Shown: in pieces, positions 3,823 to 53,123 of the stretch
Position numbering within the stretch: the stretch's first letter is position 1
How the letters are laid out: every line of letters starts with the position of its first letter
Assembly (NCBI GenBank): GCA_951812525.1
Contig: OX638316.1
Span: 1,500,506-1,564,505, forward strand
Direction of reading: 5' to 3'
Length of the DNA: 64,000 nt
From: an uncultured Poribacteria bacterium
Lineage (GTDB): Bacteria > Poribacteria > WGA-4E > WGA-3G
Made by a program: the position numbers and the translations under genes
The notes under the pieces: model-generated
Databases searched by the model: none
What the model was told of the DNA's origin: nothing
The model's input: the letters and a program-made list of their open reading frames with translations, nothing else

Positions 3823-4073
3823 TATAGAGACTTTTTTAGGATTGGAAAACGCCTTTCGAGCAGTCCGACTCGTAAAACTTTCTTCATCAATTCTTCGGGC
3901 TGAAAACCCTATGCTTTAGCGTGTGGGTGCTATGACAAAACGGGCATTGCAATCCTATAAATCCTATAAAGTACTGTCCTGCACACCTTACAAGTTCATA
4001 TTGCAGTGCTCTGATCCGTAATATTGAGAGGATTGCTTCTACAAATAACATTTTCAGGAGGAAAACAGACGTA

Positions 4074-5270
4074 ATGAAAAAAGTAGTAATTATTCCACTG
4101 GTTATTTTATTGCTCGCCAGTGTTGGCTGTGAAACGAAACAGAAAGGTCCGAGCAATCTATCTGTAGGCAGAAGTAAATTGATTGATAGCGGAAACGCCT
4201 TGGAAGCCGTTGAACTTCTTGAAAAAGCAGAACAGGAAGAAGTAAATAAGCTGGAACCCCGCGCCCTACTCCTTATCGCTTATTCTCACGGGCTTGCAAC
4301 CGGAGATGCCACCACTCTCGGCGTTGAAGCCAAGTTCAAAAATCAACGCCAGCAGCGAATACAACAACTGACTGAGGCTGAAATGCGGCAACTCCTGCAA
4401 ATCCTCAGCACACCCTCGCGAGTACAGAAAGCTGGCTTGCAAGCACTTGTAGACAAGGGACCTGAAGCATCGACTATAATCTTGGACAGCCTCATCAAAG
4501 GCAGATACCCGGCACTTCACACAAATTTTGCGGAGATGCTTGTCCAGATGGGTTCTGACAGTCTTGACCTCATTTTAGCCAAACTCAACGATGAAACGAC
4601 ACCACCTGCTATCAAAACAAAATTGGTACAGACCCTTTCTGAAATCGGTGACACGGAAGCCATAGGAGCATTAAAAACGCTCCAAAGTGGAACAAGCGAC
4701 GCTGCCTTGGCAATGGAAATTAACACCACGCTCTATCAACTCGGTGAGGAATCCTATAAAAAGGACATCATTGACGGCTTAAATAATAGTGATGTTGCTG
4801 TCCGACGTACCGCCGCTAAAACCATGATAGATATCGAAGATATATCCCCCAAAGTCCTCATTGCGGGGTTGAAAGACGATGACTCTGAAGTCGTCGCATC
4901 ACTTGTAAAGGCACTCGCCATCCATCAGGACGCTGCCGCTGTTGATCCACTTATAAATATCCTCACAAGTGAATTAGGTAAAGACCCCAAACAAGCCGCA
5001 ATTGATACCCTTGATATTTATGGACAGGAGAAACTCACTGGGGGCTTGGCAAAGCGCATCACGACGCTGCTCATTGGTGGAACCGTTACCGATCCAGACA
5101 ACCGCTTCTATCTTGTACAACTGCTCAAGAGAGAGCCGTTTCTCAAACAGATTCGGGTGTTAGAGTCGATTGAAGGACTCACCTCTAAACTCTATCAGTA
5201 TCACCAAAATAAGGAGACCGAGGCACTCGTCAAGACGGCACTCAAACAACTCCTTGACGCACTTGAATAA
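4074..5270 (+). CDS. HEAT-repeat lipoprotein (paralogue 1)
   Basis: The N-terminus MKKVVIIPLVILLLASVGC is a lipoprotein signal ending in a cysteine, so the protein should be anchored to a membrane and face the envelope. The body is a series of alpha-helical HEAT/armadillo-like repeats of about 30-40 residues, for example AIGALKTLQS, VAVRRTAAKTMIDI and SEVVASLVKALAIH. Such solenoids serve as protein-binding scaffolds. No catalytic motif is visible. AGGAGG at 4056-4061 lies 12 nt before the ATG, a rather long spacing. The next gene is a clear tandem paralogue. Function is unknown; the name describes structure only. Confidence 0.82.
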   Translation: MKKVVIIPLVILLLASVGCETKQKGPSNLSVGRSKLIDSGNALEAVELLEKAEQEEVNKLEPRALLLIAYSHGLATGDATTLGVEAKFKNQRQQRIQQLTEAEMRQLLQILSTPSRVQKAGLQALVDKGPEASTIILDSLIKGRYPALHTNFAEMLVQMGSDSLDLILAKLNDETTPPAIKTKLVQTLSEIGDTEAIGALKTLQSGTSDAALAMEINTTLYQLGEESYKKDIIDGLNNSDVAVRRTAAKTMIDIEDISPKVLIAGLKDDDSEVVASLVKALAIHQDAAAVDPLINILTSELGKDPKQAAIDTLDIYGQEKLTGGLAKRITTLLIGGTVTDPDNRFYLVQLLKREPFLKQIRVLESIEGLTSKLYQYHQNKETEALVKTALKQLLDALE

Positions 5271-5345
5271 ATGACACGGAGTTAGCGCACTCACGGCTTA
5301 CATACCGACGCGCTTTTCAGTATCCTTAATTTTGTCTTAAATTTC

Positions 5346-11430: not shown

Positions 11431-12351
11431 ATGACCTCTAAACTCCTCTGCCTCCTCGGTCCCACAGCAGTTGGCAAAACAGAGATAGCCATTCAATTGG
11501 CGCAACATCTCAACGCCGAAATTATCTCCGTCGATTCCCGACAAATCTATCGGCAGATGAACATCGGTACCGCCAAGCCTACCTCTGAAGAACAGCAAGC
11601 AGCACGACATCACCTCATAGACTGCGTAGACATTTCGCAACCCTTCTCCGTCGCTGACTATCAAGCCCTCGTAGACGCAGCGATCACCGACATCCAATCC
11701 AGAGGGAAGCAAGTCCTACTCGTAGGTGGTGCTGGTCTCTACTTCCGGGCTGTTGTTGACGGCTTGTTTGAAGGACCCGGAGCGGATCCTGCCCTCCGTG
11801 CGCAGCTTAAGCAAGAAGCAGCGGAACACGGTGTCAATGCTCTTCACGATCGACTCCGTGCCTGCGATTCAGAATCTGCTGACCGAATCCATCCCAACAA
11901 CAAAGTCCGCGTCATCCGTGCCTTAGAAGTCTATGAGTTAACAGGCACTCCTATGTCCGAACTCCAGCAGCAATGGCATCCGGAAAAACAGCGTTATCCG
12001 TTTATTGCCTTCTGCCTGACGATGCCGCGTGCTTTGCTCTACCATCGTATTGAGCAGCGTGTGGATGTAATGCTTGCGAACGGGTTGATCGACGAAGTTG
12101 AATCGTTGTTAGCAGCTGGCTACTCCCTTGACACCATTGCGCTCCAAAGCTTCGGTTACAAAGAGTTGATAGCGTATCTGGATGGAGAATGTACATATAT
12201 AGAAGCCATCTCGCAACTGAAGCAGAACACCCGCCGCTTCGCCAAACGCCAACTAACGTGGTTCCGCAAAGACACCCGCATTGAATGGATAGACCGAGAA
12301 TCAACACCAGACACCGTCCCCTACCTTTTAGAAAAAATCGGAGATATTTAA
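11431..12351 (+). CDS. miaA: tRNA dimethylallyltransferase MiaA
   Basis: MiaA adds a dimethylallyl group from DMAPP to N6 of A37 in tRNAs that read UNN codons. The ATP-like P-loop GPTAVGKT is at residues 10-17, followed by SVDSRQIYRQMNIGTAKPT, the standard tRNA/DMAPP-binding motif, and later GGAGLYFRA. Length (306 residues) and motif order are typical. It follows the decapeptide-repeat gene by 9 bp and probably belongs to the same transcript as mnmA, making a small tRNA-modification cluster. A terminator-like hairpin lies just after the stop. Confidence 0.97.
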   Translation: MTSKLLCLLGPTAVGKTEIAIQLAQHLNAEIISVDSRQIYRQMNIGTAKPTSEEQQAARHHLIDCVDISQPFSVADYQALVDAAITDIQSRGKQVLLVGGAGLYFRAVVDGLFEGPGADPALRAQLKQEAAEHGVNALHDRLRACDSESADRIHPNNKVRVIRALEVYELTGTPMSELQQQWHPEKQRYPFIAFCLTMPRALLYHRIEQRVDVMLANGLIDEVESLLAAGYSLDTIALQSFGYKELIAYLDGECTYIEAISQLKQNTRRFAKRQLTWFRKDTRIEWIDRESTPDTVPYLLEKIGDI

Positions 12352-13030: not shown

Positions 13031-14854
13031 ATGGCAGCAAATCTCACAGCTTATTGCCTTGGAGAAGTTACAGATTATATTGACTTTGAACGACTTTGCC
13101 ATCATTTAATGTCTCTAGCGGGTTACAATCTTATTGAGCCTCTTGGTCGCTTCAATGATAAAGGGCGGGATGCTGTTCATGTCAACGCGTCTAATAAGAC
13201 TACGATATTTGCCTATAGCGTCCGTGAAGATTGGAGAGCTAAACTTGCCGAAGATGCAAAAAAGATTGATGAACACGGTCATGCTTGCCACCAATTTATT
13301 TTCATCACTACTGCTAGATTCACTGCACATCAGCGAGACGCGGCAATCGCATCTATTAAAGAAGAATTTGGTTGGCGATTGGAACTCTTTGGTATTGAAC
13401 GTCTGCAAGTTCTTCTTGACGCGATGCATCCACAAATTAAGGAACTGCATCCGAGTATTTTTCCGCCAGAATTCCTTGCGATTCAAGATCATATTGATAC
13501 TTCAACGAAGCGAAATCATCTTTTCATTAGTTCTGTTGATGAGGATGGAGTGTTTGCAGATTGGTTAACTGGAAAATTGACTACAGAGGGGTATCTCGTT
13601 TGGTCTGAGCGGTTCAAGTTCCTAGGTGGTGAAACTTATCCCGATGATGTTGACGATGCGATTAAAAATCAAACTTTCAAGTTTATCAGTCTGTATTCGC
13701 GAGCGTCCCAGAGAGATCTTGAGGTCATACGGCAAAGGGGACTTGCCCTAAATGTCCAGAGTGAGCGGGATCAAGATTTCCTTATACCTTTAAATGTGGA
13801 TGGTGTAGATCAGACCCAGTTAGATCAGGTTACGAGAACTTTAAAGTTTATCCCATTTCAGTACAATTGGGCCGAGGGACTGAGACAGTTACTGAAAAAA
13901 CTGGAACTTATTGATTGTCCGCGATCATTACCTAACGGAAAACGTATTGCTGCAGAAGCCTTTTTGAGAAACGATGTTCGGTCAAACGAAAAAGAGACCG
14001 TTTTCTCAAACTGTTTTCGAGTTCACCAAATCCCAAAGGTAATTTACCGCTTCAAATCACGCGAAGCAATTCCAAAAGAAAAATTGAGTGCACTCAGGTT
14101 GGAGTGGAGTTACAGAGAAATTGATCCGTATACTTTTCTGAGTTTTTATAGCCCTCCTGCTTCAATCCTCAAAGAATACGGTGTAACTGAAAAGGGAGGA
14201 GGTCTATGGCCGGAAGTTGAGAAAATAGATGGAATTAGGTCGTTTAACTTAGTATCAGAACTTATTCAAAAAGCACTGATTGTGAAATGTCATCAAAAAG
14301 GATTGAAGTACTGCCCCGAAACGAAACAACTCTACTTTCCTCGGGATCTCGACAAGAGCAATCGGATCAGTTTTACTCAACCTGACGGTAAAAAGACTAA
14401 TATAGCCGCCAGCGGAAAAAGAAAACACTTATCTGGAAGCAAATACCTATATTCTCTTGCTCCGAACTTTTTTGTCCGCCAAGATCTCTTTGGTGATTTT
14501 ACCGTCCTTCTTTGGATACGAGTCCGTCTTTCAGGCACAGAAGGAAAACCTTTTTCGGATAAACGTATGATTGTTTCACGCCGAAAACACTTGTGTAAAG
14601 ATTGGTGGAATAAAAAATGGTTTAACTGTACTTTAGCAGTCAGTCAATTTCTCGCGGATGGAGATAAAATAACAATTAACGAGTCAGGGGAAGCGCAAAT
14701 TATTATTGATGCTACCCCATTTTGTATGAATGCTCCAGTTGGCATTAACGAAGAAGTACTTGACGAACTTAGTCGAGAACGATCAGAAGTGATCAGAAAC
14801 TACGATGAATTTTCAGATGGAGATATTGGCGATGAGGAAATCGGAGATAACTGA
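13031..14854 (+). CDS. Nuclease-like/TIR/APAZ protein, effector subunit of a SPARTA-type short Argonaute system
   Basis: This is a 607-residue protein with three regions. Residues about 15-145 resemble an Mrr-type restriction-endonuclease fold (FERLCHHLMSLAGY, then GRFNDKGRDAVHV), but the usual (D/E)xK position reads FAYSVRED, so nuclease activity may be lost. Residues about 161-245 are a TIR domain (NHLFISSVDEDGVFADWL, VWSERFKFLGGETYPDDV, FKFISLYS). The candidate catalytic acid is Glu193 in WSER, one position off the common WxDE pattern. Residues about 330-590 look like an APAZ domain: GLKYCPETKQLYFPRD, a GKRKHLSGSKYLYSLAP core, and late RVRLSG and RMIVSRRKH strands. In known SPARTA systems APAZ holds the short Argonaute, and the TIR domain hydrolyses NAD when guide and target bind. 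The gene overlaps the pAgo gene by 23 bp. The domain calls are by eye. Confidence 0.82.
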   Translation: MAANLTAYCLGEVTDYIDFERLCHHLMSLAGYNLIEPLGRFNDKGRDAVHVNASNKTTIFAYSVREDWRAKLAEDAKKIDEHGHACHQFIFITTARFTAHQRDAAIASIKEEFGWRLELFGIERLQVLLDAMHPQIKELHPSIFPPEFLAIQDHIDTSTKRNHLFISSVDEDGVFADWLTGKLTTEGYLVWSERFKFLGGETYPDDVDDAIKNQTFKFISLYSRASQRDLEVIRQRGLALNVQSERDQDFLIPLNVDGVDQTQLDQVTRTLKFIPFQYNWAEGLRQLLKKLELIDCPRSLPNGKRIAAEAFLRNDVRSNEKETVFSNCFRVHQIPKVIYRFKSREAIPKEKLSALRLEWSYREIDPYTFLSFYSPPASILKEYGVTEKGGGLWPEVEKIDGIRSFNLVSELIQKALIVKCHQKGLKYCPETKQLYFPRDLDKSNRISFTQPDGKKTNIAASGKRKHLSGSKYLYSLAPNFFVRQDLFGDFTVLLWIRVRLSGTEGKPFSDKRMIVSRRKHLCKDWWNKKWFNCTLAVSQFLADGDKITINESGEAQIIIDATPFCMNAPVGINEEVLDELSRERSEVIRNYDEFSDGDIGDEEIGDN

Positions 14855-16346
14855 TTCAGTCATAGCATTTGATGAACCAGAGTTAGAATTCCGATATGGG
14901 CAGCGTATGGCTGATCCACGTGATGGGCTTGCGCTTTTCGGGCCTTACGATGCCGATTTGCCCTCCTGCCCTGGAAGGCTGTCTTACATTCTTATTGGAA
15001 CGGACACAGGAATCACCGCCTTTAAAAAATGGGCGGATGCTATGGATCGTCCTGCTATTTTTGCCCCAAATGGGAATCAAAGGCTTTGGCCTCCATTTCC
15101 GGGATTTGAAGCCGCTTTTTGTTCGCAATGGTCTAGCAAACCAGTTAGGTCTTATCAGATTGATGGAGACCAACTCACTGAAAACTCTCGTCGTCAAGAT
15201 GAGTACGAGCGAGCGTTTGAAGTTGTCAATTGTTACCTTGAACAGTTTGAAAAGGCATCCAAACTTGATGAAAATATTGGCGCGGCTATTTGTGTGGTGC
15301 CAGATGAAATTTGGAAGAATTGTCGTCCAGAGTCCCGAGTTAAGAATCCTACGGGTCAAAATGTTTCTTCTAAAACAAAGAGGTCGAGGAAGGCAGGCCA
15401 AACTGAGATGTTTGCTGACTACGATCCACAACAGTATCAGTTGTCAACTGATTTCCGGCGACAACTCAAAGCGCGTTCAATGCGATATGAAATTCCTTTG
15501 CAAATTCTGCGCGAGTCCACATTGCGGTTGACAGACCATAATGTATTTGGAGAACGCGTGCTCACTCCACTATCAGATCGTATGTGGAACATTAGCACTA
15601 CACTCTATTATAAATGCGGTGGAAAACCTTGGAGGCTTGTGACTGCGCGCGACGGTGTTTGTTACATCGGTATCGCCTTTCGTCGAGCTGAAGAAAAAGA
15701 AAATACTGCTTGTTGTGCTGCCCAAATGTTTCTTGATACCGGAGATGGTATAGTCTTCCTTGGTGAATATGGACCGTGGTATTCATCGGGAGCAAGACAA
15801 CTTCATTTAAAAAGAACTGATGCATGCAACCTTTTACGTAGTGTTTTAGAAACTTACAAAAAACTTGAAGGTAAGCAACTTAAAGAGATTTTCTTGCATT
15901 CGCGATCTGATATTAGTAAGCATGAGTTTTCTGGTTATCAGGCAGCGTGCCCAAAGGGGGCTAAGCTCGTTGGTATAAGGGTTCGTGTAGATCGCCGACG
16001 CACGCCGAGATTATTCCGGATGGGCGACATGCCAGTCCTTAGAGGTACATTCTGGAAGATTAACAACAAGGCAGGGCTATTATGGGGAAGCGGGTTCAAG
16101 CCCCGAATTGCAACCTATGACGGATCGGAAGTTCCCGTTCCGTTACGAATTGATATTCAACATGGAGATGCTCCTATAGAAAGAGTAGCACAGGATATTT
16201 TTGGCTTAACGAAATTAAATTATAATGCTTGTCATCTTGGAGAATCTCAGCCTGTTACTGTAAGCCTTTCTGACGCTGTGGGAGAAATCCTAATCTCAAA
16301 TCCTACCGTTTCCGATCGTAAACCACAACTTAAATTCTACATATAA
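14832..16346 (+). CDS. Short prokaryotic Argonaute (MID-PIWI), catalytically inactive type
   Basis: I chose the ATG at 14832 (MRKSEITDSV), which has GGAG 9 nt upstream inside the preceding gene; a frame from 14805 is also open. The N-terminus (EPELEFRYGQ, DPRDGLALFGPYDADLP) is the usual opening of short pAgos. The C-terminal half is PIWI: YIGIAFRRAE, IFLHSRSDISKHEF, and the late LTKLNYNACH and PVTVSLSDAVGEIL motifs that contact nucleic acid. The first catalytic aspartate (GID in active enzymes) is Ala in GIAF, and the second motif is also altered, so slicing is not expected. That fits short pAgos, which only recognise the target with a guide and activate the partner effector. The length of about 504 residues is normal for MID-PIWI without PAZ. 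A HicB-like gene follows after 20 bp. Confidence 0.88.
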   Translation: MRKSEITDSVIAFDEPELEFRYGQRMADPRDGLALFGPYDADLPSCPGRLSYILIGTDTGITAFKKWADAMDRPAIFAPNGNQRLWPPFPGFEAAFCSQWSSKPVRSYQIDGDQLTENSRRQDEYERAFEVVNCYLEQFEKASKLDENIGAAICVVPDEIWKNCRPESRVKNPTGQNVSSKTKRSRKAGQTEMFADYDPQQYQLSTDFRRQLKARSMRYEIPLQILRESTLRLTDHNVFGERVLTPLSDRMWNISTTLYYKCGGKPWRLVTARDGVCYIGIAFRRAEEKENTACCAAQMFLDTGDGIVFLGEYGPWYSSGARQLHLKRTDACNLLRSVLETYKKLEGKQLKEIFLHSRSDISKHEFSGYQAACPKGAKLVGIRVRVDRRRTPRLFRMGDMPVLRGTFWKINNKAGLLWGSGFKPRIATYDGSEVPVPLRIDIQHGDAPIERVAQDIFGLTKLNYNACHLGESQPVTVSLSDAVGEILISNPTVSDRKPQLKFYI

Positions 16347-23046: not shown

Positions 23047-23960
23047 TCATTTTCCGTCTTTGAATCGTCCGATGGCGCCGCGTTCGGCGAGTTCGGCTTT
23101 TGCGTAGTGTGCGGGCATCTGCGACGACTTCCAGCGTCCCGCGACTTGCATATCCACAACAGTCGCACCGGCTTGCGCGAGCGAAACGGCAGACCCAACC
23201 CGCAACGAATGCCCAGAGATAAAACCCTCAACACCCGCAGCGTGCGCCCGTTTCTGGATGATACGCCGTGCCGAAACGGTTGTAAGCCGATCCGACTGGA
23301 CGTGCCCGCCGCGACGGATATGACGGAACACCGCACCGCGCCCGATCTCTGCCTGTTCTCTGTACTGCTTTAGGAGCTCACGCGTATTCTCACAAACATA
23401 CAGCGTTTCGCCTGTACCCTCCTGATCGGTTTTCGAGGATCGAAGTGTGAGCGTACTACCTTTCAAATCGCCCACATTCACAGCCACAACCTCAGAGATC
23501 CGCAGCAGACAATCGCTCATAAGTCGGATCATCGCCGAATCCCGCAATCCGATAAGCGTACCTTCCGTTTCCGCGTAGATACACACCCTCTCGACATCCT
23601 GCCAAATCAGCCCGTCTACCTGCCCGCGTCCTCTGTCTCTCCCTTCCCTACGGATACCCGCCAATGTTGCCTGTGTGATCGGGAAGTTGACAGATTCCTG
23701 TGATTGATGTTTGAGTTGCCACTTCACCGCGGCGATGAGTTGCCCGATGGTTGCCGGGGATTTGCCGTTCTCGTGTAGAGTGTGATGTAATTCGCTAACA
23801 GGGCATCGGAGAGCGTTCGACCGGATAGCCACGTTGTTAGGTTCTGGAGTGCGCGTTGATAGGCCTTTAGCGTGTTCTCTGCAATGGAGGCTTTGATGAG
23901 GGATTCGGTTTCTTCTGGAAGTTGTAAGACTCTTGAGTTGGGTTCGATGATAGCGTTCAT
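23047..23960 (-). pseudogene. Tyrosine recombinase (integrase), frameshifted copy A
   Basis: The N-terminal SAM-like part reads from the ATG at 23960 (MNAIIEPNSR, SIAENTLKAYQRALQNL, LLANYITL) and then leaves frame near 23770-23790. The catalytic domain continues in another frame (LHENGKSPATIGQLIAAVKW). Catalytic residues are present: Arg in DCLLRISEV, the HxxR of GHSLRVG and the Tyr of AHYAKAEL. Compared with the intact copy at 39064-40044, the two pieces align end to end, so one indel is the simplest explanation. The enzyme would catalyse site-specific strand exchange. Confidence 0.8.
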
Positions 23961-24210
23961 AGTGACCTCTGAAAGTGGATAGCGTTGTATAATTCCCAAA
24001 GTGGTTAAATTGTGGATTGAGTCGCTGCCGTATGTTTCAGATAATCGCATACAGTTAATGATTATTTTTTTTACGCTGCCCTCCCGATCAAGCGCGAAGT
24101 TGGTGTGCCTTATCAATATCTTCACGCCCCGAAAAAGTTTCACCTGATTTAAGTTTCCCAAGTTTTGGTAATGCGCGATATGTCAAATGTCCTGTTTTCA
24201 ACGGTAAGCT

Positions 24211-25661: not shown

Positions 25662-26763
25662 GAGGGTGGTGCATAAATAAAGTTGTGAAGTATCAGGATA
25701 ATGGGTATGCTTAAATGAAATCACCCATATAAGGCATACCCAATGTATTATCCTGACGCAAAAGAGTATATCACATTTGTGTTTTCTTTGCTTGATGAGT
25801 TTGCTGAAAAAAGACGAACTCCTATCAGTAGAGGGAGACCGAAGAGGTATTCAGATGCTGCCTTGATCGTCTTTTATGCGATGATGACGCTCAAGGAGAT
25901 AAATACCATTCGCGGACAACACCGTTGGTTATACACGCATCCGCTGATGCTTGAGACGCTGGGCTTGCGGTTTTGTCCATCGCGTTCGACCCTTGGGCGG
26001 CGATATAAAGTCCTGCTTCCGGTTCTCAGTGAGTTTTCTGAGTTCATTGCGGATTGGGCAGTTTCACACGGATATGGTTTTTCGTATACACTCGTTTATG
26101 AAGATAAGAGTTTGTTCAAAGCACGCGGACCCGTTTGGCACAAGAAGGATCGTGCGAAAAACCATATCCCCAAAGGACTTCGCAATGTCGATAAGACCGC
26201 AAACTGGTCGAAAAGTGCCTATCACGGATGGGTCTATGGATATGGACTTCATCTCACCACAACACGACACGGATTTCCTGTGATGTTTGATGTCTTGCCT
26301 GCCAACGTCAATGAACGTAAGGTTCTTGATAAAAAACAGCAGCGCATTATCGAAAAACAGATCCGGTGTTTGATCGCAGATGCCGGATACAGAGATAAAA
26401 AACGTGCCACCGACCTGGCTGCGGCGAAAATCATGCTCATAACACCCGACATCTGTGTCAAACACGCAGAGACGCTCTGGGGTTCCATGGACGCTATGGC
26501 AGTCGCAGTTTTCAACGAGGCGAAAGCGGCGCGGAAAATAACTATTGAACCGATTTTCGATTTACTCAGCAAACTTCTGGGAACCCAAGGTCCGCAAAAA
26601 CCTTTGCCCGTCAGCGGGTTGGCATCCGTAGCCACCTTTTTGGGACTTGGAGTGATACTTTTACAACTCGCAATGTTGATGAATCTCCGCTGGGAACTTC
26701 CCACTCGGAATGTCACACATATCAAAACTGTTTTTCAATAAAAATGATTTATGAACCACCCTC
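25662..26763 (+). mobile_element. Intact insertion sequence (DDE type), 1102 bp, 8-bp target duplication
   Basis: The ends are inverted repeats: GAGGGTGGTGCATAAAT at the left (25662-25678) and its near-perfect complement at 26747-26763, with one mismatch. Both are flanked by the octamer AATTATAT. A single complete transposase gene fills the element. Perfect duplications and an intact gene indicate recent insertion. Confidence 0.92.
25743..26741 (+). CDS. DDE transposase of the insertion sequence
   Basis: This 332-residue transposase covers nearly the whole element. Likely catalytic acids are the Asp in LVYEDKSLFKARGP, the Asp in CLIADAGYRDKK, and the Glu in ITIEPIFDLLSKLLG. The spacing and the YRD-type motif resemble IS4/IS5-group DDE enzymes, but I cannot name the exact family. 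An N-terminal helical region (GRPKRYSDAALIVFYAMMTL) probably binds the terminal repeats. The frame is complete with no stop or shift, so it may be active. Confidence 0.88.
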   Translation: MYYPDAKEYITFVFSLLDEFAEKRRTPISRGRPKRYSDAALIVFYAMMTLKEINTIRGQHRWLYTHPLMLETLGLRFCPSRSTLGRRYKVLLPVLSEFSEFIADWAVSHGYGFSYTLVYEDKSLFKARGPVWHKKDRAKNHIPKGLRNVDKTANWSKSAYHGWVYGYGLHLTTTRHGFPVMFDVLPANVNERKVLDKKQQRIIEKQIRCLIADAGYRDKKRATDLAAAKIMLITPDICVKHAETLWGSMDAMAVAVFNEAKAARKITIEPIFDLLSKLLGTQGPQKPLPVSGLASVATFLGLGVILLQLAMLMNLRWELPTRNVTHIKTVFQ

Positions 26764-37177: not shown

Positions 37178-37690
37178 TTATCGCGACTTTCCATCTTTGA
37201 ACCTTGCGATTGCGCCGCGTTCGGCGAACTGGGCGCGTGCGTAGTGTGCTGGCATTTGTGAGGATTTCCATCGTCCTGCGACTTGCATATCGACGACGGT
37301 TGCACCGGCTTGTGCGAGTGAGACGGCAGAACCGACGCGCAAAGAATGACCGGAGATGAAACCTTCTACGCCGGTATCAGCTGCTCGTTTTTTGATAATG
37401 CGTCGAGCGGAGTGGGGGTGAAGTCGCGTCGGCTGGATGTTGTCGCCGCGTCGGATGTGTCGGAAGAGGGCATCGCGTGTGATGTCTGCTTGCTCCGTGT
37501 ATTGTTTTAGGAGTTGACGGGTCTTGTCGCAGACGTATAGGGTTTCGCCTGCCCCTCTTGATCGGTTTTCGACGATCGGACGGTAAGGGTGTTTTCCTTC
37601 AGGTCGCCGACGTTGACCGCGACGACTTCTGATATACGCAGTAAACAATCGCTCATAAGCCGGATCATTGCAGCGTCGCGTAAGCCAAAA
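37178..37690 (-). pseudogene. Tyrosine recombinase, truncated and frameshifted (copy D)
   Basis: Homology begins abruptly at about 37690 (RDAAMIRLMSDCLLRISEVV, then AVNVGDLKENTLTVRSSKTD). It loses one base near 37555 and continues GAGETLYVCDKTRQLLKQYT ... FISGHSLRVGSAVSLAQAGA ... PAHYARAQFAERGAIARF, with stop at 37178. The N-terminal DNA-binding half is missing. The break at 37690 adjoins the promoter of the 37753 gene cassette. Confidence 0.82.
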
Positions 37691-39063: not shown

Positions 39064-40044
39064 ATGAAAAACAAAAAACAGGAAAACACTCCGGCAACCG
39101 CTATCGTCCCTACCACCGAATCAACTGCGGAACTAATCCCACATCCAACAGCCGAGCTCATAGAAAAATCCTTCGCCGAAAACACACTCCGCAATCGCAG
39201 GCAGGCACTACAACAGTTTCAAGATTGGCTACAAGGACGACCCATCACAGACGGACTACTCGCACAGTATATCACGCACCTGTTTGACGACGGCAAAGCA
39301 CCAGGGACAATCAGCATTGCCGTTGCAGCGGTAAAGTGGCTGCTCAAGCACCGCAATAACGGGAACCCAGTTGAAACACCTATCACGTCAGCAACACTAT
39401 CCGGTATCCGCAGGGAAGGCAAAGATCGAGGACGCGGACAAAGACGCGGCCTAACGTGGCGTGAAGTTGAGAAAATCTGTGCTGTTCAGGAGGCAGACGA
39501 CACGCGCCGCGGGCTACGCAATTCCGCTATCCTACGTGTTATGTCCGACGGGCTGCTCCGTATCTCTGAAGTGACAGAGCTCCGTATATCCGACCTTGAG
39601 AATAACACACTACGGCTCCAGTTCTCCAAGACAGACCAAGATGGACAGGGCGAATACCTATACCTCTGCGAGGACACCCGCGAGATTGTACAATGCTGGC
39701 TCAAGCGTGCTGAACTCACAGAAGGTTATCTGTTTCGGCGGATGACGGCACGTGGGGATAACCTCTACAGAGACAAAGACACCGGTGAACCGCACAAACT
39801 CACTGACGACGGCGTGCGAAAGATAATCAAGCAAAGTGCTGCGAGGGTAGGACTTACAGATAAGGTATCAGGGCATTCACTGCGGATAGGAACAACTGTA
39901 TCTCTCGCCCAGTCAGGTGCTTCGCTTGTCGATATTCAAGTCGCAGGACGCTGGAAAGACCCAGGTATGCCAGCACACTATGCGCGCGCCCAGTTCGCCG
40001 AACGCGGCGCAATCGCACGATTCAAAGACGGAAAGACGCAGTAA
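39064..40044 (+). CDS. Tyrosine recombinase/integrase, intact copy (E)
   Basis: This is a complete 326-residue phage-type integrase. The N-terminal SAM-like core-binding domain spans about residues 33-115 (SFAENTLRNRRQALQQFQDW). The catalytic domain has Arg166 (GLLRISEV), Lys189, His271 and Arg274 (GHSLRIG), Trp297 and nucleophile Tyr306 (AHYARAQ). All required residues are present, so it may be active. The Shine-Dalgarno overlaps the previous stop codon. Four decayed relatives lie at 23047-23960, 29231-29387, 30032-30155 and 37178-37690. The protein probably moves a DNA module by site-specific recombination; I could not define its att sites. Confidence 0.92.
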   Translation: MKNKKQENTPATAIVPTTESTAELIPHPTAELIEKSFAENTLRNRRQALQQFQDWLQGRPITDGLLAQYITHLFDDGKAPGTISIAVAAVKWLLKHRNNGNPVETPITSATLSGIRREGKDRGRGQRRGLTWREVEKICAVQEADDTRRGLRNSAILRVMSDGLLRISEVTELRISDLENNTLRLQFSKTDQDGQGEYLYLCEDTREIVQCWLKRAELTEGYLFRRMTARGDNLYRDKDTGEPHKLTDDGVRKIIKQSAARVGLTDKVSGHSLRIGTTVSLAQSGASLVDIQVAGRWKDPGMPAHYARAQFAERGAIARFKDGKTQ

Positions 40045-49498: not shown

Positions 49499-52072
49499 TT
49501 AGTACGGGAGCCTCTCAAAAAGTTCCACAGCGTATTCATTCGATTCATGAAAGGTTGTCTCAAGAAGATTCAGTGCTTCATTTTCGTTTTCTGCCGCATA
49601 AGTGCCGTGTTTCTTGAAGTATTCACGGATAATAGGCAAAAATACCTCAGCATATTTCTCAGATCTCGCCCGTCCCACGCCGGGCATCAATCTGAACGAT
49701 TCTTCAGATGTAGGAAAATAGGCAGCCATTGCTTGTAGTGCTTTATCGTGCAAAACTTCGTAAGACAATACACCGTCTGCTGCAGCGATTCTGTCTCGTT
49801 CAATCCGAAGTAATTCAAAAAGTTCGGAAGAGTAGTCAGGTGACGCTTTAGGTGTAACACGGTTTATCGACTTCACTGGAAATCCCCAAAACTGATTGCC
49901 TCTGTTGAGCACACCCCACCCCTTCTGAGTCACACGGAGACTCCCGTGTCGAGCATCTCGTTCAAGGAGTTCGTGTTGAAGGAATTGGAGAGACAAATGT
50001 CGCCATTGTGCTTTGCTATAATCCGTGCCAATTCCGTGCGTGGAAAGCCTGTCATGCCCATTATCAAGAATTTTTTTTCTGCGTGAACCTCGCAATACAT
50101 CAATAATATGTGCTTCGCCGAACATCTGACCTGTCCGAAGAACACAGGAAAGGTATTTTTGTGCCGGAATTGTCAAATCAATCCGTTCCATCTCAGCGTT
50201 GCAGCAATTGTCACACATTCCACAATTCTGTTGCTCATACTGTTCTCCAAAATAGGCTAACAACCCTTTACGGCGGCACTCCATTGATGTTGCCCATGAA
50301 ACAAGCGTCTGTGATCGTTCCTGCCGTCCCTGTCTTTCAGATCGTGCCCCCTGTTCAATAAAATAGTTAATTGTGTCCACATCACTATAGCTAAATAGCA
50401 AGAGACAGTCGGCTGGAAGCCCATCTCGTCCACTGCGCCCAATTTCCTGATAGTAAGATTCCGGTTCCTTCGGCAAACCAGTATGTAACACAAAACGAAC
50501 ATCTGCCTTATCAATACCCATGCCGAAAGCGACCGTGGCGATGATCACCCGAATGTCGCCGTTGATGAAGGCATCCTGATTATGTTTGCGGGTTTCATTA
50601 TCCAAATCTGCATGATACGGAAGGACAGAAATCCGTCTGGCAGTTAAATCACGGCACAGTGAGGCAACCTGTTTTTTCGTTTGACAATAAATAATACCAG
50701 ATTCTTGGCGATGCTTATCGAGAAACGCAAGGGTCTGATCTAACAATTCAACCTTCGGGTCAACGGCAATAAAGAGATTTTTACGGTCAAAACTACCAAT
50801 GAACGCATTTCCCGCATCAAACTTGAGTAATTTTTTAATGTCTTTTTGAACTCGCGGGGTCGCAGTGGCTGTGAGAGCAACACAGACAGCGTTTTGGAAT
50901 CGCTCGCGAATTGAAACCAGTTGTCGATATTCCGGGCGGAAATCGTGACCCCACTCCGAAATACAATGCGCTTCATCAATCGCGAGGCATGCAACATCTG
51001 CTTCGTCGAGCATTACGAGTATTTCAGGTCGGACAAGCGTTTCAGGAGCGAGATAAAGAAGCTTAATTTTCCCCTGTTTCACATCCTGCATCGTAGTAGC
51101 GTATTCTGAATGCTTGACGGTACTATTGAGAAACGCGGCACGGATACCTCTGCTTTTCAGTTGCATCACCTGATCCTGCATGAGCGAAATTAACGGCGAA
51201 ACAACAACAGTCACACCTTCAAAGATTAATGCCGGTAATTGATAACACAGCGACTTTCCACCGCCCGTCGGTAGTACAATCAGAGCATCTTGGTGTTTCA
51301 GTACATGGTTGATGATCTCTTTCTGGAATGAACGAAATTCTTCGTACCCGAAAACGTTTTTGAGAATCTCCAAAGGAATTTGCGTTGATGTTTGAGGTAG
51401 AGGCGGTTTCTTTACAGGTAAAGGTTTCGGTTCTTCCTGTTTTATCTCCGCAAGAAACCATCCAGAAAGCTGCGCATAGTGGCGTTCTTCAATGGAAGGG
51501 TCATTCTCTGGTCGCCACCGGTGTGCCAATGACACGCGAAGGAGCGTTCCAGCAGGGATTGTCTCAACCGGTTCCTCAAAACCAGCGAAGGTGAGCGTGC
51601 AACCCGCATTTTCCGTAGGATAACGGTACCGTATCCGTTTTCCTTCTGTATCGCGGATAAGAGGCTGATCCGGTCTCCAAAACGTGGTGCTGTAGGGTGG
51701 AACATCATCTCCAGCTGGAACATAGAGAGAACCGTTCTCAGTGGTTTTCAATAAGCCTTCATAAAGCTTTAGTGGATCTCCTATCTTCGGTGGCATCAAA
51801 AGTTCAATAGCACTTACTAAATCCTTTGGGTCTTTTGTAGTATGCAGGCGATGCTTTTTATGGACGACAAAGTTTTCGTTATGTGGTGGAATCAACGAAG
51901 TTTCGGGCGTACCCGTAATTTCCCAAATATCGCCAACATTATATTCTTGATTCGCACCATCATGCGGATCAGCGTTAAACGGAATGAGCCGAACGCTCTC
52001 TCCTGTCTCTGTAATGGCTCCGATACACGCACCTCCACCCATTCGGGTTTTCGCAACAATAAGTACTCTCAC
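49499..52072 (-). CDS. RecQ-family DNA helicase with N-terminal OB-like domain
   Basis: The GTG at 52072 overlaps the stop codon of the upstream DUF488 gene (GTGA), giving 857 residues; a longer frame to 52141 is unlikely. Residues 1-215 (VRVLIVAKTRMGGGACIGAI, SVRLIPFN, VGDIWEITGTP) look like a dual OB-fold nucleic-acid-binding domain. From about residue 234 comes a full RecQ core: FRSFQKEII, Walker A PTGGGKSLCYQLP, the box IDEAHCISEWGHDFRPEY, TATATPRVQKD, QEIGRSGRDG, then the zinc motif (CRRKGLLAYF, CGMCDNC), a winged helix and a C-terminal HRDC domain (LMPGVGRARSEKY). It unwinds DNA 3'-5'. The link with two DUF488 genes suggests a dedicated pathway rather than housekeeping RecQ. Confidence 0.92.
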   Translation of the reverse strand: MRVLIVAKTRMGGGACIGAITETGESVRLIPFNADPHDGANQEYNVGDIWEITGTPETSLIPPHNENFVVHKKHRLHTTKDPKDLVSAIELLMPPKIGDPLKLYEGLLKTTENGSLYVPAGDDVPPYSTTFWRPDQPLIRDTEGKRIRYRYPTENAGCTLTFAGFEEPVETIPAGTLLRVSLAHRWRPENDPSIEERHYAQLSGWFLAEIKQEEPKPLPVKKPPLPQTSTQIPLEILKNVFGYEEFRSFQKEIINHVLKHQDALIVLPTGGGKSLCYQLPALIFEGVTVVVSPLISLMQDQVMQLKSRGIRAAFLNSTVKHSEYATTMQDVKQGKIKLLYLAPETLVRPEILVMLDEADVACLAIDEAHCISEWGHDFRPEYRQLVSIRERFQNAVCVALTATATPRVQKDIKKLLKFDAGNAFIGSFDRKNLFIAVDPKVELLDQTLAFLDKHRQESGIIYCQTKKQVASLCRDLTARRISVLPYHADLDNETRKHNQDAFINGDIRVIIATVAFGMGIDKADVRFVLHTGLPKEPESYYQEIGRSGRDGLPADCLLLFSYSDVDTINYFIEQGARSERQGRQERSQTLVSWATSMECRRKGLLAYFGEQYEQQNCGMCDNCCNAEMERIDLTIPAQKYLSCVLRTGQMFGEAHIIDVLRGSRRKKILDNGHDRLSTHGIGTDYSKAQWRHLSLQFLQHELLERDARHGSLRVTQKGWGVLNRGNQFWGFPVKSINRVTPKASPDYSSELFELLRIERDRIAAADGVLSYEVLHDKALQAMAAYFPTSEESFRLMPGVGRARSEKYAEVFLPIIREYFKKHGTYAAENENEALNLLETTFHESNEYAVELFERLPY

Positions 52073-52557
52073 GGTAAAATATCTTCGACCTCCAGGTTGA
52101 ATGTTTTTGCCAGTTTGTTCGCTACCAATGAGCGGTGACATGCCTCAGGTGCAGTTTCCACGCAAAAGAGGGCAACAACTTTAGCATCCGATTCCAGTGC
52201 ATCCAGCAGGCTTTTGGGTTCAAACTCGGCAAGACATTCGGTACGATAAGCCTCAATAAACGCTTCACCCAAAACAGTGCGTTTGCGTTTAGCGGTTTTC
52301 GTCGCTTTATCCGCCGCTGCCTGTTTTTCTCGAACAACTTTTGTCGGTCCCAAGTCTTTGCGATGGATGTATCGGATGCCGAGTTCCGCAAGTCGTGCTT
52401 GCAATCGCATGCTATTGGCGAATGCGTAAGTTGACCCGCGGACACCTCGTCTACTACGGATGTCACAGAACGTATCAACCTCTGCCTTGCGCAATGCCTC
52501 AAAAAAGTTGGCTTCGTCAAAGCCGTATACACCAATAGTAACAATTTTTATTTTCAT
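52069..52557 (-). CDS. DUF488 family protein (second of pair)
   Basis: This 162-residue DUF488 protein has the start motif IVTIGVYGFDEANFFEAL, then the conserved DIRSRRGVRGSTYAFANSMR and GIRYIHRKDLGPTK, and a terminal VVALFCVETAPEACHRSLVA with the family Cys-x(n)-CHR signature. A basic insert (ADKATKTAKRKR) is unusual. DUF488 proteins have no established biochemical role and are often found near nucleic-acid-processing genes. The last codons overlap the start of the RecQ gene, and the gene begins 11 bp after the first DUF488 stop, so all three are co-translated. Confidence 0.88.
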   Translation of the reverse strand: MKIKIVTIGVYGFDEANFFEALRKAEVDTFCDIRSRRGVRGSTYAFANSMRLQARLAELGIRYIHRKDLGPTKVVREKQAAADKATKTAKRKRTVLGEAFIEAYRTECLAEFEPKSLLDALESDAKVVALFCVETAPEACHRSLVANKLAKTFNLEVEDILP

Positions 52558-52568
52558 GGTGGATTAGA

Positions 52569-53123
52569 TTACGGGTATTTTTTCCGGGAATGGAACGTCC
52601 GCTCACCAAACATCGACAGTTGCCCGCCTGTCAGCCGTTCAATAACTTGCGCCTGCGTCAGTTGCTCATCATTCTCATCGATATGAACAACCGGTATATC
52701 CTCATTCGTGAGGGTCGCACCGATAAGTTTGCATCTATGGCACTCCTCCGGTTTTCCCTCACTACACATCAGGGCAACGCTTTGTTGTTGTGAGAAGGCG
52801 GTGTGAAGGCGTTGGATACCACGCTGGTAGGATGCTGTGGCTTTGACCCTTTCGTAGTCAACTTTCCCATTGACATAGCACGTTTCGTCGTCAGGTCTGC
52901 CACCGAGCGAATCTCCCATGAACACGTAGCGGATGCCGTGCTGTTCCATTTCATTCGCCAGCGGTGCTTTAGAGAATTCCGGTTTATAGCGGGAATACGG
53001 TGCCGAGCGGACGTCAATAAGATAGGCAATCTCATGTGCGTGTAGCACTTCAATGAGATCCTCGATTGAACGGCTTCCGTAGCCTATGGTGTAGATTGGA
53101 ATATGGACAGATAGTTTTTCCAT
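52569..53123 (-). CDS. DUF488 family protein (first of pair)
   Basis: This is a 184-residue DUF488 protein: IYTIGYGSRSIEDLIEVLHA, LIDVRSAPYSRYKPEFSKAP, GIRYVFMGDSLGGRPDD, ALMCSEGKPEECHRCKLIGA. It carries all family landmarks, including the CxE...CHR segment, and a C-terminal VIERLTGGQLSMFGER. It heads the DUF488-DUF488-RecQ transcript. The ATG lies only a few bases after the predicted transcription start and has no Shine-Dalgarno, so the mRNA may be leaderless. Confidence 0.9.
   Translation of the reverse strand: MEKLSVHIPIYTIGYGSRSIEDLIEVLHAHEIAYLIDVRSAPYSRYKPEFSKAPLANEMEQHGIRYVFMGDSLGGRPDDETCYVNGKVDYERVKATASYQRGIQRLHTAFSQQQSVALMCSEGKPEECHRCKLIGATLTNEDIPVVHIDENDEQLTQAQVIERLTGGQLSMFGERTFHSRKKYP

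Follow-up and report, generated by a model that had tools for sequence, protein, structure and literature searches.

The closest described relative of the locus analyzed here is PDC-M45, an unvalidated PADLOC-DB candidate with components A, B and C. PDCs are the product of a guilt-by-embedding approach, and the majority lack validation (PMC12988326). In our literature search, we found no paper that mentions PDC-M45 and none that joins DUF488 and RecQ. Here we describe a three-gene operon in a 64,000-nucleotide stretch of a sponge-associated Candidatus Poribacteria genome, which is a single 5.06-Mb contig (OX638316.1; the window, meaning the whole stretch analyzed, covers positions 1,500,506 to 1,564,505). 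The open reading frame (ORF) list of the window gives the minus-strand gene order as D1 and D2, two DUF488 proteins, followed by DuOB-RecQ, a RecQ helicase headed by a dual OB-fold (DuOB) domain. With moderate confidence, we read D1-D2-DuOB-RecQ as a candidate module, encoded on the chromosome, that acts against phages or plasmids. The features of the operon are as follows.

52569..53123, minus strand: D1, first gene of the operon, a DUF488 protein of 184 aa (Pfam PF04343, 5.8e-22; PADLOC PDC-M45B, 2.3e-54)
52734..52766, minus strand: D1 motif CSE-GKPEE-CHR (C120, E122, C128-H129-R130), from the sequence, conserved in 46 D1 rows
52558..52568, minus strand: D1/D2 intergenic gap of 11 bp, from the sequence and ORF coordinates
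52069..52557, minus strand: D2, a DUF488 protein of 162 aa (Pfam PF04343, 5e-14; DUF488-N3a, 2.5e-6; AlphaFold2 model, pLDDT 93.8)
52132..52164, minus strand: D2 motif CVE-TAPEA-CHR (C132, E134, C140-H141-R142), from the sequence, alignment and D2 model
52069..52072, minus strand: GTGA overlap of 4 bp between the D2 stop and the DuOB-RecQ start, from the sequence
49499..52072, minus strand: DuOB-RecQ, 857 aa from GTG (Pfam; TIGR01389 recQ, 674 bits)
51458..52072, minus strand: DuOB, dual OB-fold domain, residues 1-205 (PF22557, 2.8e-25; model pLDDT 86.8)
49628..51331, minus strand: RecQ part, with DEAD 248-410, Helicase_C 440-551, Zn-binding 562-624, RQC 628-725 and HRDC 750-815 (Pfam)

A RecQ-fused relative of PDC-M45

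PDC-M45 consists of two DUF488 genes (B and C) and a DuOB gene (A), and the same three components are adjacent in the operon when A is taken as the DuOB domain. D1 matches PDC-M45B strongly, and the related trio at locus L083, which is followed by a separate RecQ, matches A, B and C. D2 matches PDC-M45C weakly (1.7e-12) and PDC-M19A slightly better (2.3e-14). Unlike PDC-M45, A is fused to RecQ here, and the order is B-C-A, while both orders occur in Chloroflexota. Since the window's DuOB has no match to the PDC-M45A models by sequence, although Pfam calls it DuOB like the matching L083 protein, we file the operon as related to PDC-M45 rather than as PDC-M45 itself. It is a RecQ-fused variant and no new category, and it likely works like PDC-M45. 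With respect to the Pfam families DuOB (PF22557) and DUF488-N3a (PF22751), the DuOB domain scores above its cut-off, while N3a is passed weakly by D2 (28.2 versus 27) and not by D1.

An earlier note on this DNA had proposed that the three genes are packed with an 11-bp gap and a 4-bp stop/start overlap, that both partners of RecQ are DUF488 proteins with CxE...CHR motifs, and that RecQ carries an N-terminal OB-like domain. ORF coordinates and sequence bear out both junctions, and the DUF488 pair is confirmed by the PF04343 matches and by a mixed alignment of 25 rows in which the CxE and CHR columns are invariant across D1 and D2. The N-terminal domain is more exactly a dual-OB domain, with a PF22557 match over residues 1-205 and two OB barrels indicated by the model and its tandem-OB structure matches. 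The automatic ORF call for RecQ starts at ATG 52141, while GTG 52072 is an alternative that gives the GTGA overlap. We prefer the latter, as the earlier note did, since 43/44 related loci retain an NTG start that shares 4 bp with the D2 stop (NTGA); these were fetched separately but come mostly from the same genomes as the 46 neighborhoods surveyed below, so that the count is no independent sample. Since the order and spacing of the three genes persist in relatives at 41-86% identity, their packing is not a matter of chance.

DuOB-RecQ resembles a housekeeping RecQ in its helicase core, Zn-binding, RQC and HRDC domains. Its helicase motifs are intact, it passes the TIGR01389 recQ equivalog (674.2 bits, cut-off 640.2), and 4q47 is a solved homologue (1.3e-130). 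It differs in its extra DuOB head, its DUF488 operon partners, its placement in a separate clade and its HRDC copy number, which ranges from 1 to 3 among relatives; Chloroflexota copies add HTH_40. The window's genome holds this one DuOB match only, plus a second RecQ elsewhere. Such a second RecQ is present in nearly every Poribacteria genome and is retained in genomes that lack the fusion, so DuOB-RecQ is an accessory protein, and its being a replacement for the housekeeping RecQ was ruled out. In the RecQ tree, all fused RecQs fall in one clade across phyla (support 97/98), separate from the second RecQ, with one unfused member nested inside. This grouping makes a single origin of the fusion, followed by movement between phyla, the probable history.

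In a Foldseek search of the Protein Data Bank (PDB), the DuOB model best matches the HIN domains found in DNA sensors of the IFI16 type (E 3e-5, probability 1.00), with telomere-end and BRCA2 OB proteins scoring more weakly. Like DuOB, the HIN domains of IFI16, p202, p204 and MNDA are tandem OB folds, but identity is 10-12%, TM-scores are 0.3-0.4 and the root-mean-square deviation is about 8. DuOB does not group with HIN-200, since no HIN chain appeared in the PDB sequence search and the TM-score is about 0.4 against a threshold of 0.5. With TM-scores near 0.4, we regard the resemblance as an analogy of build, with similar parts and no claim of common descent.

Linkage of D1, D2 and DuOB across phyla

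Our Poribacteria survey covered 85 genomes for DuOB and 83 for D1 and the CBASS (cyclic oligonucleotide-based anti-phage signaling system) and prokaryotic Argonaute (pAgo) genes, with 46 fused neighborhoods including the window. DuOB is present in 47/85 genomes, and D1-D2-DuOB-RecQ occurs in identical order at all 46 fusion neighborhoods; among these, D1 of L076 was found by profile match rather than among the called ORFs, and the RecQ frame of L080 is split. The neighborhood association that the earlier note suggested between OB-RecQ and DUF488 thus holds for 46/46 Poribacteria loci, where D1 and D2 adjoin the fused RecQ. Nor do homologous DuOB-RecQ genes regularly occur without DUF488, as both DUF488 genes adjoin in every fused locus seen in Chloroflexota and in bins labeled Acidobacteria and Latescibacterota. 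The order and the NTGA overlap thus persist from one phylum to another. The conserved order within Poribacteria is largely mere inheritance at a fixed site, and the linkage claim therefore rests on the cross-phylum cases and on those with both gene orders.

DuOB was above the cut-off in 42/400 Chloroflexota genomes. We fetched 40 of these loci: 25 have two adjacent DUF488 genes, 1 ends at a contig edge with one DUF488, and 14 have none, of which 8 belong to a different DuOB subfamily with weak matches. The gene order is either D-D-DuOB or DuOB-D-D, and RecQ is usually absent. Since both orders occur, the association of DUF488 with DuOB goes beyond the inheritance of one arrangement. D1-D2-DuOB without RecQ is found, for example, at Chloroflexota locus L129 and on a Rhodothermus plasmid, beside Cas1, Cas2 and CARF genes, and it is the commoner form outside Poribacteria. 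In genome G012, an unfused TPR-RecQ that belongs to the other RecQ type comes after the trio. This seems to be another, separate instance of pairing with a RecQ, although the tree branch of this RecQ is long and its placement unsure. The core unit is D1-D2-DuOB, and RecQ is an optional addition.

Several loci depart from this layout. Two tandem DuOB genes precede the DUF488 pair in the Chloroflexota loci L161, L163 and L164, and in L174 (6940-8523) DuOB is fused to an NHL-repeat propeller sequence, with the DUF488 pair upstream. In L177 (7205-9950), a DuOB without DUF488 directly follows a UvrD/GajB-like helicase gene, and DuOB may thus pair with other helicases. We found no DuOB match in phages and none confirmed in viral contigs, and the plasmid matches are from Rhodothermus only; on these grounds, we dropped the idea that phages or plasmids carry the Poribacteria form.

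Exchange beside miaA

In Poribacteria, synteny places the operon at a fixed chromosomal site near miaA. The window holds the following features at this site.

11431..12351, plus strand: miaA (IPP transferase), the housekeeping anchor of the exchange site (PF01715, 315 bits; synteny)
13031..16346, plus strand: short pAgo system next to miaA, with a Mrr-like/TIR-APAZ protein at 13031-14854 and a short pAgo at 14805-16346 (PADLOC 5.4e-79 and 1e-171; TIR_2 and Mrr_cat)

Comparison of relatives shows that the operon is cleanly present or absent. L220 lacks 3.9 kb relative to L078, and this segment is exactly the operon; its two flanks in L220 join directly, the matched blocks lying 2 bp apart. In about 15 genomes D1 is kept, while D2 and DuOB-RecQ are lost together; D2 remnants persist in L200 (the first 56 residues) and L215 (about 20). 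These remnants aside, D2 is found only with DuOB within Poribacteria.

Defense or candidate defense genes occupy the vacated place in several relatives. A CBASS cyclase and four-transmembrane (4TM) effector stand in place of D2-DuOB-RecQ next to the retained D1 in L203, and the same pair lies beside D1 in L210 and L217, two loci that may lie outside the miaA site. Short pAgo and TIR-APAZ genes are at the site in L206, and in L075 such genes lie beside the operon. Other occupants are PDC-M19A/B (L201 and L221), a PDC-M48B-like gene (L208) and a D1 fused to NERD-UvrD (L214). PDC-M19A has a DUF488 domain of its own, so finding it close to D1 counts for less than finding CBASS or pAgo there.

As a control, we asked how often these families lie near D1 at all. 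The CBASS cyclase subfamily (>300 bits) is present in 4/83 genomes, in 3 of which it lies about 5 kb or less from D1. For pAgo, the closest type is present in 4 genomes, with 2/4 within 5 kb of D1 and 1, the window's own, beside miaA; across all pAgo places, 2/18 are near D1. By chance, any one gene would fall within a target of 10 kb in a genome of 5 Mb in about 0.2% of cases. Since the genomes are related and the families were picked after they had been sighted at the site, this control lends support but is no clean test.

Further observations concern the site and its occupants. The close relative L054 lacks the segment of about 37 kb that separates miaA from the operon in the window (12352-49498). 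Besides the pAgo system, this segment holds a DDE transposase (25743-26741), a gene of the integrase family (39064-40044) and two more integrase-like ORFs, judged by eye (23047-24161 and 37178-37648). L217 (G034:C15) carries D1, PDC-M19A, PDC-M19B and the CBASS cyclase/4TM pair in a row, its D1 being a second copy, and the same genome has a complete D1-D2-DuOB-RecQ operon on another contig. The D1-NERD-UvrD protein (L214:7215-9638, one protein of 807 aa) is a further DUF488-helicase fusion, and the rest of its neighborhood matches the operon locus L082. Where D2-DuOB-RecQ was lost in L200, two ORFs (4030-5324) are candidate occupants; the 206-aa one has no PADLOC or Pfam match.

A candidate defense role and its alternatives

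The earlier note had left the choice between defense and repair open. Its proposal of one pathway acting on nucleic acid is supported, and we lean to defense. The strongest evidence is the position of the operon: CBASS, short pAgo and other candidate defense genes take its place in relatives, and its presence or absence is an exact polymorphism. Since relatives carry known anti-virus systems at the same chromosomal spot, the three genes probably make up an immune module.

We infer a division of labor in which DuOB detects, RecQ opens, and D1/D2 process ends or modifications. DuOB would use its tandem OB folds to recognize DNA that is foreign or abnormal (single strands, ends or modified bases, for example), and RecQ would translocate and unwind DNA from the DuOB-bound point. 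D1 and D2, as putative rhodanese-phosphatase-type cysteine enzymes, would then remove or transfer a phosphate or sugar group at DNA ends or on a base modification, which would keep the invading DNA from being replicated or repaired. In most Chloroflexota and in Rhodothermus, which have no RecQ in the set, a different helicase or passive binding would have to take its part. In the D2 model, C132 closes strand 127-132 and CHR runs into helix 142-153, a topology compatible with the rhodanese-phosphatase fold; enzymes of this type keep their cysteine in such a strand-helix loop, and we take DUF488 to belong with them. Burroughs and Aravind (2023) reportedly predicted that proteins of the DUF488 clade process DNA ends in conflict systems. 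In the viral library match list, DUF488 phage proteins come top, and tyrosine phosphatases and RapZ-C appear weakly. When solved structures were searched by sequence, none proved to be a meaningful relative of D1, D2 or DuOB. Tentatively, the operon could represent a HIN-like tandem-OB sensor on a RecQ motor feeding two cysteine enzymes that disable DNA through chemistry at its ends or modifications instead of nuclease cutting, together with a miaA-adjacent Poribacteria site that swaps this module with CBASS or short pAgo while keeping one of the two enzymes.

Several points weigh against a defense role. Most of the support for this candidate role is guilt by position, and since the Poribacteria genomes are related, the exchanges represent few independent events. 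The DUF488 chemistry is a prediction, Foldseek gave the D2 model no PDB match below 0.001, and the window's DuOB fails the PDC-M45A models. The operon is also common and vertically kept (46/85), with D1 in 61/83 genomes, which fits a cellular maintenance role as well.

The alternative that survives best, though we consider it rather unlikely, is host DNA repair or genome maintenance, in which DuOB would bind single-stranded DNA or stalled forks, RecQ would remodel them, and D1/D2 would clean damaged 3'/5' ends, the defense neighbors being an accident of a permissive insertion site. The RecQ, RQC and HRDC architecture is typical of repair, and, besides the wide presence of D1, inheritance is mostly vertical at a site fixed in the phylum and substitutions relative to the nearest relative are mostly synonymous. 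However, the operon or D2-DuOB-RecQ is cleanly missing in many relatives while the separate RecQ stays in almost all, CBASS, pAgo and PDC genes take its place, DuOB is patchy in Chloroflexota, and the Rhodothermus plasmid copy lies beside CRISPR genes. It is doubtful that D1 is an independent resident enzyme and D2-DuOB-RecQ alone the working module inserted beside it. The solo loci, where D1 stays intact while the other two genes vanish together, and the restriction of D2 to DuOB-bearing Poribacteria loci would fit such separable units, but the adjacent trio recurs in Chloroflexota, Rhodothermus and G012, outside the miaA site and in both gene orders, and D1 is therefore a regular partner. 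Very unlikely is a DNA-modification or self-marking system with Dnd/Dpd-type logic, in which D1/D2 would add or remove a group on DNA that DuOB-RecQ reads: paired putative enzymes with a reader and a helicase do resemble modification-dependent restriction, and DpdF is the top PADLOC match for the helicase part, but DpdF identity was rejected because the NCBIfam equivalog NF041063 is missed (191.3 bits, cut-off 550), so that these matches reflect the shared helicase core only, and the operon has no nuclease or synthesis genes.

That CBASS and short pAgo can stand in place of the operon strengthens the case for a candidate defense set that is itself unvalidated, and the miaA-adjacent site in sponge symbionts is a place to mine for further systems. 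DUF488 is a widespread family without established biochemistry as far as our literature search went, and its place in a conserved trio, next to a DNA-binding domain and sometimes a helicase, offers the family a concrete, testable pathway.

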